64,000 nucleotides of DNA from Peribacillus sp. ACCC06369 (GTDB lineage: Bacteria; Bacillota; Bacilli; Bacillales; DSM-1321), in contig NZ_JAUCEN010000002.1 of the NCBI RefSeq assembly GCF_030348945.1, forward strand, positions 2,542,001 to 2,606,000, written 5' to 3'. Of the stretch, positions 37,400 to 41,420 are shown in pieces. Numbering within the stretch: position 1 is the stretch's first letter; each line of letters starts with the position of its first letter. The translations under genes and the position numbers were made by a program. Under the pieces are notes generated by a model. It was not told the DNA's origin and did not search any database. It was given only the letters and a program-made list of their open reading frames with translations.

Positions 37400-37693
37400 T
37401 GTAGTTCAAGGATTTGTTTGCAGAACGGGCTTAAAGGAGATTATTTGATTTTTTGTATTTTAATAATGAACTCGATAGAATATATTAATAAAAAAAACTC
37501 AAAGCGGTTTATAAAATTTGGTTCAACATTCAATTCCAAGGGATGCCGTTAACCGGCCGTTTAATAAATCTCTTGAAATAAAATAGAATTAATGTTATAT
37601 TAATAAAGCGATGAGCTAATTTGTGTAAGTCGAAGAACAAGCTTTTAGCTAAACGTCGGGATGTGGCCTGACGGTTCTGCGCCTCAAACGCAT
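37400..37693 (+). other. Intergenic region, no gene seen
   Basis: Between the convergent HemAT and TatA genes. Nothing but the shared terminator at its right end is supported. Confidence 0.5.
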
Positions 37694-37726
37694 CAAAGAC
37701 GCCTGCTGCGTGCAGGCGTCTTTTTC
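37694..37726. terminator. Intrinsic terminator between convergent genes
   Basis: AAAGACGCCTG/CAGGCGTCTTT stem with a six-to-eight-base loop and T on both sides; serves TatA on the minus strand. Confidence 0.85.
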
Positions 37727-38269: not shown

Positions 38270-38275
38270 TATACA

Positions 38276-38466
38276 AGCTGCGTTGTTCGTAATGATAATT
38301 AAGTTTTAACCTTTAAGCTGTAATAGGGAGTTTTACATCGAAACAGGAATGTTATGCCTCGTCACTGACTTGGACAACAGGATTGTTTCTGCAAACACCC
38401 ACTTTGAGGAGTGGTGGTTTAAAACTTTCTTACTTGAATACGGCAATGGCGGCTTACCTTTTTTAA
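38276..38466 (+). ncRNA. Candidate structured RNA of about 190 nt (6S-like layout)
   Basis: No reading frame fits, yet the stretch is bracketed by a promoter and a T run. TAAGCTG (38314) can close with CGGCTTA (38450). Inside are a CACC.ACT/AGTGGTG hairpin (about 38396-38418) and smaller stems around a large open centre. The length and long-rod-with-bubble shape would fit a 6S RNA, but I cannot confirm the family; another ncRNA is equally possible. A second terminator follows at 38472. Confidence 0.4.
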
Positions 38467-40146: not shown

Positions 40147-40453
40147 AATCAAATGCATGAAATGTCAGTGAAGGGATACCTAGCTGTCATTTTATGTATA
40201 ATTACCTTCTATTATCGGAGTCATGGTTCCTATCAAAATTATGCAAATTGACAAGTCTTGGCGTTTGTCCTGCGCTAGAAGAAATCGATTGTAAGGATAT
40301 AAATATGGATAACCCATAAATGTTCATAATTTCGCAATACGATTCACTCCATTATATAAAGAATAAATGTTAGAATAATGGTACGGATAATTAATTCCTC
40401 CTTAAAGTGGAGCGAAATAGAAATTACCTCATCTTTTGAGAGGAGTCATTACT
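40147..40453 (+). other. Intergenic region, no gene seen
   Basis: About 300 bases. Possible short hairpins only; no supported frame. Confidence 0.45.
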
Positions 40454-40642
40454 TTGAAATTTTTAAAACATATTATTTTTTGGTTATGCATTATAGGGAC
40501 ATTATTTTCTATGATTTATTTCTTTGTAGCGGACGTTCCGTTATATATAAAATTAATAGGCGGAGCCATCATCCTTTATCTTGGTTATGATCTAATAACT
40601 GAATCAAAGGAAAGAAAGCGTAAAGAAGCCTTGGAAGCTTGA
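40454..40642 (+). CDS. Small two-helix membrane protein
   Basis: 62 residues from TTG at 40454, eight bases after GAGAGGAG; the longer frame from 40436 would start inside the binding site. Two hydrophobic helices (about residues 7-25 and 31-47) and a basic, acidic-ended tail (KERKRKEALEA). No family recognised. Followed by a terminator that was split by a miniature element. Confidence 0.6.
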   Translation: MKFLKHIIFWLCIIGTLFSMIYFFVADVPLYIKLIGGAIILYLGYDLITESKERKRKEALEA

Positions 40643-40658
40643 TCCTATCTTAGGTAAA

Positions 40659-40681
40659 AGCCCTCTTTTGATAAGAGGGCT
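40659..40681 (+). terminator. Terminator hairpin, left duplicate without T tract
   Basis: AGCCCTCTT/AAGAGGGCT stem. The identical 23 bases recur at 41118-41140, where the T tract remains. The left copy lost its T tract to the inserted element. Confidence 0.9.
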
Positions 40682-41117
40682 CAGACTGTAGTCAAACTCG
40701 ATGAAAATCGAGTTTGACTACAGTTTTTTTATGGCTTGTACAATTTGAACGTTGATTGGAACGCAAGGCCTCGCTTTTCGCTGGCGGTCCGGGCACCTCC
40801 TCGGCTTGTGCCCGCAGGAGTCTCGTACCTTCCTCTCTAATCAACTTTTAGATAGAAACCCTACCTGAGGAGTTGAAGGTGTTGCTTTGAATCAGTTGTT
40901 TCGGGTACATCACTTGATGAAAGATGCGTTTTCAGGGCCGCTTTCTCCTACAGTCATTTTAAGCGACGCTTTAAAGATACAGACCTGTCCGAAAAGATTT
41001 TCTATAGACTCTTAATGATAGCTGCTGGTTCGAAAGGAAACACGAGCGTATCAAGGAATCATGTATAAAAAGGATCCTCATCACCTCAAGTTCTGAACCC
41101 CTTTTGTCTACAAACTG
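40682..41117 (+). mobile_element. Miniature inverted-repeat element inserted in a terminator (copy 1)
   Basis: 436 bases with no protein frame. Ends are imperfect inverted repeats: CAGACTGTAGTCAAA on the left, CAGTTTGTAGACAAA reading in from the right. It is flanked by exact 23-base direct copies of the host terminator hairpin. At its left end it brings its own 17-base perfect hairpin (arms 40686-40702 and 40707-40723) with seven T, a new terminator. Its interior (about 40750-40860) contains the CTCCTGCGGG-type sequence known as a dispersed repeat in Bacillus genomes. Confidence 0.85.
40686..40731 (+). terminator. Intrinsic terminator carried by the miniature element
   Basis: Seventeen-base perfect stem, GAAA loop, seven T, immediately inside the left end of the element. 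It can replace the terminator function that insertion broke. Confidence 0.85.
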
Positions 41118-41146
41118 AGCCCTCTTTTGATAAGAGGGCTTTTTGG
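41118..41146 (+). terminator. Terminator hairpin, right duplicate with T tract
   Basis: Same 23-base hairpin as 40659-40681, followed by TTTTTGG. Confidence 0.85.
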
Positions 41147-41213
41147 CGTATCAAAAAGGGTGCAATCCTTAGTTTAATAGTATGACCATCGGAATTCGGA
41201 GGGGGAAAATTGT

Positions 41214-41327
41214 ATGTCCCGAGTGACAGCAAACTTGTCAATAATGGGAAACTGATTACTGTTCACAAGTGTTTTTATAATTGCTTGGATCGTAGACAAG
41301 ATAGGTAGCAAAAAGGTTTCGATTTAG
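41214..41327 (+). pseudogene. Remnant of an MFS transporter
   Basis: GGAGGGGG precedes ATG. The 38-codon frame with one TGA reads MSRVTANLSIMGN, then LLFTSVFIIAWIVDKIGSKK, a membrane helix followed by the D-K-x-G-x-K-K loop typical of MFS proteins. The rest is gone. Confidence 0.45.
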
Positions 41328-41420
41328 AAATGGTAATTCTCAGTGTCATCCATTCACCATTCAAAGCTATACGTACAAATTATTCGATATATTACTCTGG
41401 AATTTCAAAATAATAACAAA

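Follow-up and report, generated by a model that had tools for sequence, protein, structure and literature searches.

The 436-bp element in the window, the whole stretch of 64,000 nucleotides of Peribacillus sp. ACCC06369 analyzed here, is most probably the remnant of an IS1182-family insertion sequence (IS) which inserted into the terminator of a 68-aa open reading frame (ORF) and belongs to a clade that would duplicate its hairpin targets by strand transfer at the feet of the hairpin. We place the probability of this reading at roughly 85%. At the level of sequence comparison, the hairpin repeat, its exact centring, its variable length, the single hairpin in empty sites, the repeated hits on the same terminators and the distribution in the transposase clade are established. 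The reading explains twin hairpins that flank IS remnants and offers annotators a rule for locating element ends.

The two exact copies of the 23-bp hairpin AGCCCTCTTTTGATAAGAGGGCT enclose 436 bp with no ORF of at least 60 aa (Table 1). The left copy starts 16 bases past the end of the 68-aa ORF and abuts the first base of the element directly, whereas the right copy is followed by TTTT. The ends of the element, CAGACTGTAGTCAAA and TTTGTCTACAAACTG, are inverted repeats matching at 12/15 positions. Coordinates and ORF list agree with the initial annotation, which had described a non-coding element with inverted-repeat ends between exact hairpins, only the right one of which keeps the T tract. 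At the left end of the element, arms at 40685-40702 and 40707-40724 pair perfectly over 18 bp and are followed by a T run. This hairpin is the sole terminator-like call in a consensus scan of positions 40400-41400, the host hairpin being left uncalled because its T tail is below the length set by the rule. Since shuffled sequence of the same interval yields a mean of 1.0 terminator-like site, the scan by itself is no evidence. An Rfam search of the window returned only BsrF sRNA (37608-37720) and 6S RNA (38272-38459), both outside the element.

Table 1. Features of the inserted element and its host site (positions in the window)
Positions	Strand	Feature	Basis
40436..40642	+	Upstream host ORF, 68 aa, TTG start; its terminator is the target	ORF list; query of ORF plus hairpin matches 21 other genomes of the genus
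40659..40681	+	Left hairpin copy, 23-bp target duplication, without T tract	Hairpin is single in empty sites
40682..41117	+	436-bp non-coding element, decayed derivative of the 1744-bp IS1182-family IS	Piecewise matches to the IS
40682..40696	+	Left terminal inverted repeat CAGACTGTAGTCAAA; full-length copies have CAGACTGTAGACAAA	Comparison of ends
40683..40726	+	Element-borne terminator-like hairpin, then T run	Left-end fold of -31.0 kcal/mol; terminator scan
40956..41056	+	Transposase-gene remnants (IS 603-673, 764-792), no ORF of at least 60 aa	Match to the IS
41056..41092	-	Inverted piece of IS leader and transposase start region (IS 294-258)	Match to the IS
41103..41117	+	Right terminal inverted repeat TTTGTCTACAAACTG; identical end in full-length copies	Comparison of ends
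41118..41140	+	Right hairpin copy with T tract	Exact repeat of the left copy
41141..41144	+	Original T tract of the host terminator, remaining 3' of the right copy only	T tract abuts the single hairpin in empty sites

The parent of the element is present in the same genome. A search of the 5.6-Mb genome with the window element recovered at least 16 full-length copies of a 1744-bp IS, a lower bound because the best 40 of 113 candidates were scored; a full-length relative with a transposase and the same ends, which had been proposed as a check, therefore exists. The 16 copies share their terminal ends, with 15-bp imperfect inverted repeats, and are flanked by exact hairpin repeats of 20-30 bp in 14 cases, by a pair with one mismatch in one case and by two different hairpins in another. 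Given the 14 exact repeats, the hairpin pair of the window is not a product of chance. The full-length IS codes for a 452-aa transposase, which scores 460.2 bits against the NCBIfam IS1182 model NF033551 (cut-off 270) and thus belongs to that family, and which matches PF13751, PF05598 and PF01609 over their cut-offs, i.e. predicted DDE domains. Its nearest named relatives among the best 80 of 254 loci are from Peribacillus (96% identity), and alignment against solved structures gave no match at E<=0.001.

The repeats were analyzed at 97 loci, comprising the 16 full-length copies, 80 loci from one-genome-per-species assemblies (best 80 of 254) and the window. Exact direct repeats of 20-35 bp, all distinct, abut both IS ends at 71 of these loci, a count which is biased toward recent insertions, and in 71/71 the best dyad lies at the exact centre of the repeat (offset 0). 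Among the remaining 26 loci, 24 have a hairpin of at least 7 bp at one or both ends; as a control, such a hairpin occurs in 114 of 5000 random 30-mers of the window. Two loci (L139, L142) have no recognizable IS end. With 17 further repeats from wider family and plasmid searches, the set grows to 88 distinct repeats of 19-42 bp. Over the outer eight positions of these, 95.5% pair in register, versus 24-32% at shifts of 1-5 in one direction. For each of pairs 2-8, pairing is more frequent than in any of 2000 shuffles. The outermost pair is an exception, since nearly all repeats start with A and finish with T. A cruder control discriminates less well than the register test: the lowest pairing fraction seen was reached by 1723 of 200000 random windows.

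The letters at the cut are also non-random and symmetric, with AAA outside the repeat and A(A/G)(A/G)C inside it on both sides. A possible stem continues for at least 5 pairs beyond the repeat in 10/71 sites (maximum 13), and the mean number of pairs outside the repeat is 2.7 versus 1.9 in shuffles. By these observations, the cut falls where an A/T tract meets the stem, near, and not always at, the limit of pairing. Several loci depart from the simple pattern. Different hairpins lie on either side of one IS in 5/97 loci (L046, L086, L123, L134 and L146), which suggests recombination between copies, with rearrangement breakpoints at terminators. Three loci (L073, L079, L091) have exact hairpin repeats and no detectable left terminal repeat of the IS, perhaps because the left hairpin was lost through slippage. 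At L226, the arms of the flanking hairpins are identical, and the loop of one is the reverse complement of that of the other (left GGGAAGATTCCC, right GGGAATCTTCCC), as though one hairpin were inverted; simple copying does not predict this, and the locus speaks against the best model.

Orthologous sites without the element hold one hairpin. A query composed of the host ORF and its hairpin found the window site in 22 of 36 genomes of the genus, including the own genome, and the loci were compared by eye. Of the 21 other genomes, 14 have a single hairpin with the T tract immediately after it, and two (G030 and G006) share the insertion of the own genome. Reverse-orientation remnants between two hairpin-like sequences are found in G001, G024 and G029, a forward left IS end sits in a diverged hairpin in G014, and G012 aligned too poorly at the gene end to judge. 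To the right of the window hairpin, matching sequence continues only in G030 and G006, which share the insertion, so that the empty form of the window site is known from its left side and two-sided collinearity rests on two full-length sites, L187 and L196. Of the non-self loci fetched for these sites, 9 of 12 at L187 and 12 of 28 at L196 were compared by eye. At L187, four loci are empty, three are filled (two forward, one reverse), one is ambiguous and one unalignable; the empty loci have one hairpin each, and their right flanks align collinearly with the DNA beyond the IS. At L196, nine loci are empty with a single hairpin and a collinear far flank, two carry forward insertions and one a reverse insertion. 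The single hairpin in empty sites indicates that the hairpin pair arises with the insertion, and the filled loci indicate that the same terminators were struck repeatedly and in both orientations. At a third full-length site, most matches in relatives end before the hairpin. These comparisons, with the counts of 14/16 and 71/97, bear out the proposal of the initial annotation that the element inserted into a terminator and duplicated the whole hairpin, and the objection that relatives might carry paired hairpins without the element is not upheld. At an orthologous terminator (L291), a short GAGTTTGT stretch occupies the position of the T tract after the hairpin and may represent a remnant or the footprint of an excision.

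Most of the target sites resemble gene ends. A predicted gene has its 3' end directed at the hairpin and within 120 bp of it at 61/71 sites (simple ORF calls, counted without a random control), on the left only in 22, on the right only in 18 and on both sides in 21. Reconstructed sites pass a simple terminator rule in 59/71 (forward) and 65/71 (reverse) cases. After insertion, a T-rich tail is kept by the left copy in 1/71 and by the right copy, in reverse reading, in 21/71. By the same kind of simple rule, a terminator-like hairpin is borne by the element itself at the left end in 46/71 and at the right end in 44/71. Element-borne terminators were not found to be universal; the window element has one at its left end only. 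The earlier suggestion that the element brings its own left-end terminator thus stands for the window, where a hairpin with a T run is predicted, and does not extend to the elements in general. In the window, the left-end hairpin and T run would probably take over termination of the host gene; that the host gene continues to terminate, and that terminators are a harmless landing site, is plausible.

Several other explanations of the repeats were weighed against strand transfer at the hairpin feet. The transposase could read sequence, that is, two inverted motifs (AAA followed across the cut by ARRC) with flexible spacing, the hairpin being a by-product of the motif at terminator edges. The symmetric, non-random logo of the cut site fits this reading, as do the 10 sites with stem overrun, where the letters seem to assist placement of the cut; however, inward pairing persists where the letters are freer (at positions 5-8, 93-99% of the 88 repeats are paired versus 26-29% after shuffling), and two binding positions held rigidly along linear DNA would not readily give repeats that range over 19-42 bp, so that we regard this reading as unlikely. 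Slightly less likely is that transcription guides the landing, through paused or terminating RNA polymerase or an RNA hairpin, and that the DNA hairpin merely marks the event. The frequency with which sites pass the terminator rule agrees with such guidance, but no orientation bias relative to flanking genes was found (22 left only versus 18 right only), and an RNA-guided event would not be expected to place both cuts at zero offset from the dyad in the DNA. Random insertion, with selection keeping only the insertions in terminators, would enrich survivors at these probably harmless places, yet selection on location leaves the symmetric cuts about the dyad in 71/71 sites unexplained, and we consider it very improbable. 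Least credible of all is an origin of the paired hairpins without transposition, by tandem duplication or from pre-existing twin terminators. Twin terminators are known in bacteria, but the hairpin is single in the empty sites described above (at the window site in 14 of the 21 other genomes, and at L187 and L196), and the 71 distinct exact pairs meet the IS ends to the base.

A further alternative concerns the short form itself, which the initial annotation had taken for a miniature element. The window element is composed of IS pieces 1-140, 151-194, 603-673, 764-792, 294-258 (inverted) and 1718-1744; it codes for no transposase and retains only DNA fragments of the gene. Judged by this make-up, it is a derivative of the IS1182 family and not an autonomous member. 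At the same site, G030 has a 392-bp form of matching make-up and G006 has the same insertion down to a 90-bp remnant, in both cases with both hairpins present. The 436-bp form could be an active miniature inverted-repeat transposable element (MITE) mobilized in trans by the full-length IS: it is short, non-coding, bounded by terminal inverted repeats and flanked by a target duplication, it retains both ends and both target repeats, its rearranged form is common to the own genome and G030, and other short derivatives of the IS (313, 350 and 536 bp) are present in the own genome. Against this, multiple dispersed copies of one short form, typical of MITEs, were not found; among 36 genomes of the genus (E<=1e-60, at most 18 candidates per genome scored) the 436-bp form is confined to one orthologous site, in the own genome and G030. 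Moreover, its interior is pieced together from fragments of the IS, and in G006 only 90 bp of this insertion are left. An active MITE is therefore unlikely. The best reading of the single site among the matches listed and of the patchwork interior is a shared fossil rather than a multi-copy miniature element: judging from its internal deletions and rearrangement, the window copy is a decayed example of its IS. The IS may have decayed in place or may have arrived already shortened.

Strand transfer at the hairpin feet, which we prefer for the duplication, can be set out as a mechanism. DDE transposases join the 3' ends of an IS to two target phosphates, the spacing of which equals the length of the repeat, and the target repeats of DDE elements are normally short and of fixed length. 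In the mechanism proposed here, a dyad target would be attacked on both strands, in each case where the hairpin has its 5' foot, and the transposase would link the two 3' IS ends to these positions. Both flanks would then be left with a single-stranded hairpin overhang, and filling-in of the overhangs by repair synthesis would give one hairpin on either side of the IS, with the gene-side hairpin stripped of its T tract upon insertion. The location of the nicks and the gap repair are inferred, and so is the state of the target, which would be either a cruciform that has been extruded or a hairpin formed on single-stranded DNA. Attack at the feet would make the length of the repeat track the hairpin (19-42 bp), with no fixed stagger. 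Since the repeat is centred on the hairpin at any length, both attacked positions would be set by the hairpin, and since the two 5' feet of a cruciform adjoin at the junction, a single protein geometry could fit all lengths. The dyad-centred repeats of 19-42 bp make structure-directed strand transfer directly testable. With less assurance, we lean slightly toward a broader picture, in which this DDE clade would target a four-way junction, the length of the duplication would be set by DNA secondary structure, the choice between 5' feet and 3' feet would have switched along the transposase tree, and the elements would farm host terminators. The mechanism suggests a route by which such elements occupy numerous gene ends.

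Hairpin duplication is largely confined to one clade of transposases. Searches with NF033551 (E<=1e-60) gave hits in 61 of 299 genomes of the phylum and 74 of 199 genomes of the order, and the best 30 loci from each search, three of them in common, yielded 57 loci. Of these, 18 have hairpin repeats (three of them, L209, L233 and L240, being duplicates of sites in the count above), 25 are of a long type without them and 14 were not classed owing to a broken frame, a contig end, no repeat or a partial repeat; the latter are unlabelled or off the tree. Hairpin repeats of at least 11 bp were found in none of the 25 long-type elements (at least 515 aa). The tree, a quick IQ-TREE run for which the program warned of long branches meeting, contains 79 transposases, including 24 of the 80 one-genome-per-species loci (L089 was dropped for a stop). 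In this tree, 36 of 37 labelled duplicators fall in one 47-row clade (SH-aLRT 99), together with 10 unlabelled rows and one row labelled as lacking repeats, a label that stands for long length and absent hairpin repeat; the latter row, L205, lies near a contig end. The remaining duplicator, L222, branches just outside the clade, and the labels require a minimum of three changes. A full-length locus inside the duplicator clade, L241, which is one of the 14 unclassed loci, has no repeat that we could find. A plasmid element with the label ISSep1 groups with the long-type transposases.

The repeat lengths listed for the IS1182 family are very variable, so that single cases of hairpin duplication may well be on record; our literature search, the coverage of which is thin for subscription journals, returned no recognizable report of duplication of a whole hairpin. 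It is well supported that the kind of target, hairpins in the IS1182 family, is already known, and that regular duplication of the hairpin is distinct and marks a transposase clade. According to the accessible text of Furi et al. 2016 (PMC4923244), IS1272/TnSha1 insert at hairpins, among them terminators, deleting part of the hairpin and generating no target duplication. As described in the accessible parts of PMC4923244 and PMC5678879, they resemble the present clade in transposase family (IS1182), in hairpin or terminator targets often just 3' of genes, in little primary sequence specificity and in insertion in both orientations. By contrast, IS1272, compared here by description only in those parts, removes all or part of the hairpin and leaves no target repeat, whereas this clade duplicates the hairpin; of the IS1272-type features, our loci thus share the hairpin target and, having exact double hairpins, not the removal of the hairpin without a target repeat. 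The accessible part of Wan et al. 2017 (PMC5678879) attributes the observed mode of IS1272 to an attack on the 3' feet in which the hairpin is lost. Pathway b of the same paper (Fig 13 legend, Discussion) corresponds to the 5'-feet model proposed here and is drawn as an alternative, with no example in the portions accessible to us; the loci described above would supply many natural examples of this whole-stem-loop pathway. That text also refers to a review which describes some IS1182 members as targeting palindromes, detailed data being absent. According to the accessible portion of PMC12056078, target duplication does not always accompany the action of IS1182-related transposases, and these may recognize a DNA structure. 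ISPse1 of Paracoccus, as tabulated in the available part of PMC3281130, belongs to the IS1182 family and has inverted repeats of 16/16; the table value of 4, which we take as the length of its target repeat, contrasts with the hairpin-length repeats here. The accessible text of PMC4438569 and PMC6450365 contains nothing on hairpin duplication.

Among the matches listed (60 of 2009 plasmid records), the closest element-named relative is ISEfa7, with 55.6% transposase identity. It shares the IS1182 family, a similar transposase length and the left end CAGACTGTAGACAAAGTC; it differs, as judged from a single copy, in having no repeat of at least 11 bp, no recognized right end and no left-end hairpin. 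Five short-type plasmid copies include two with exact hairpin repeats, two with unlike hairpins and one, the ISEfa7 copy L332, with no hairpin at its left end. This left end is intact, and L332 is a single counter-example, from a distant relative, to the expectation that copies are always flanked by hairpins, which otherwise agrees with the exact repeats at 71/97 loci and with the hairpins at 24 of the other 26.

The leader of the IS contains a GC-rich block, tagged by GGCACTCGCTTTCCGCGGGCGG, which is found at about 40748-40848 in the window element. The tag has 53 matches in the genome (at most two mismatches) versus 0 for a reversed control, and many of them lie outside the 16 full-length copies. 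In IS kin of about 1558 bp, the leader is about 90 bp long versus about 275-285 bp in the 1744-bp IS. The block may be a separate repeat riding within the IS.
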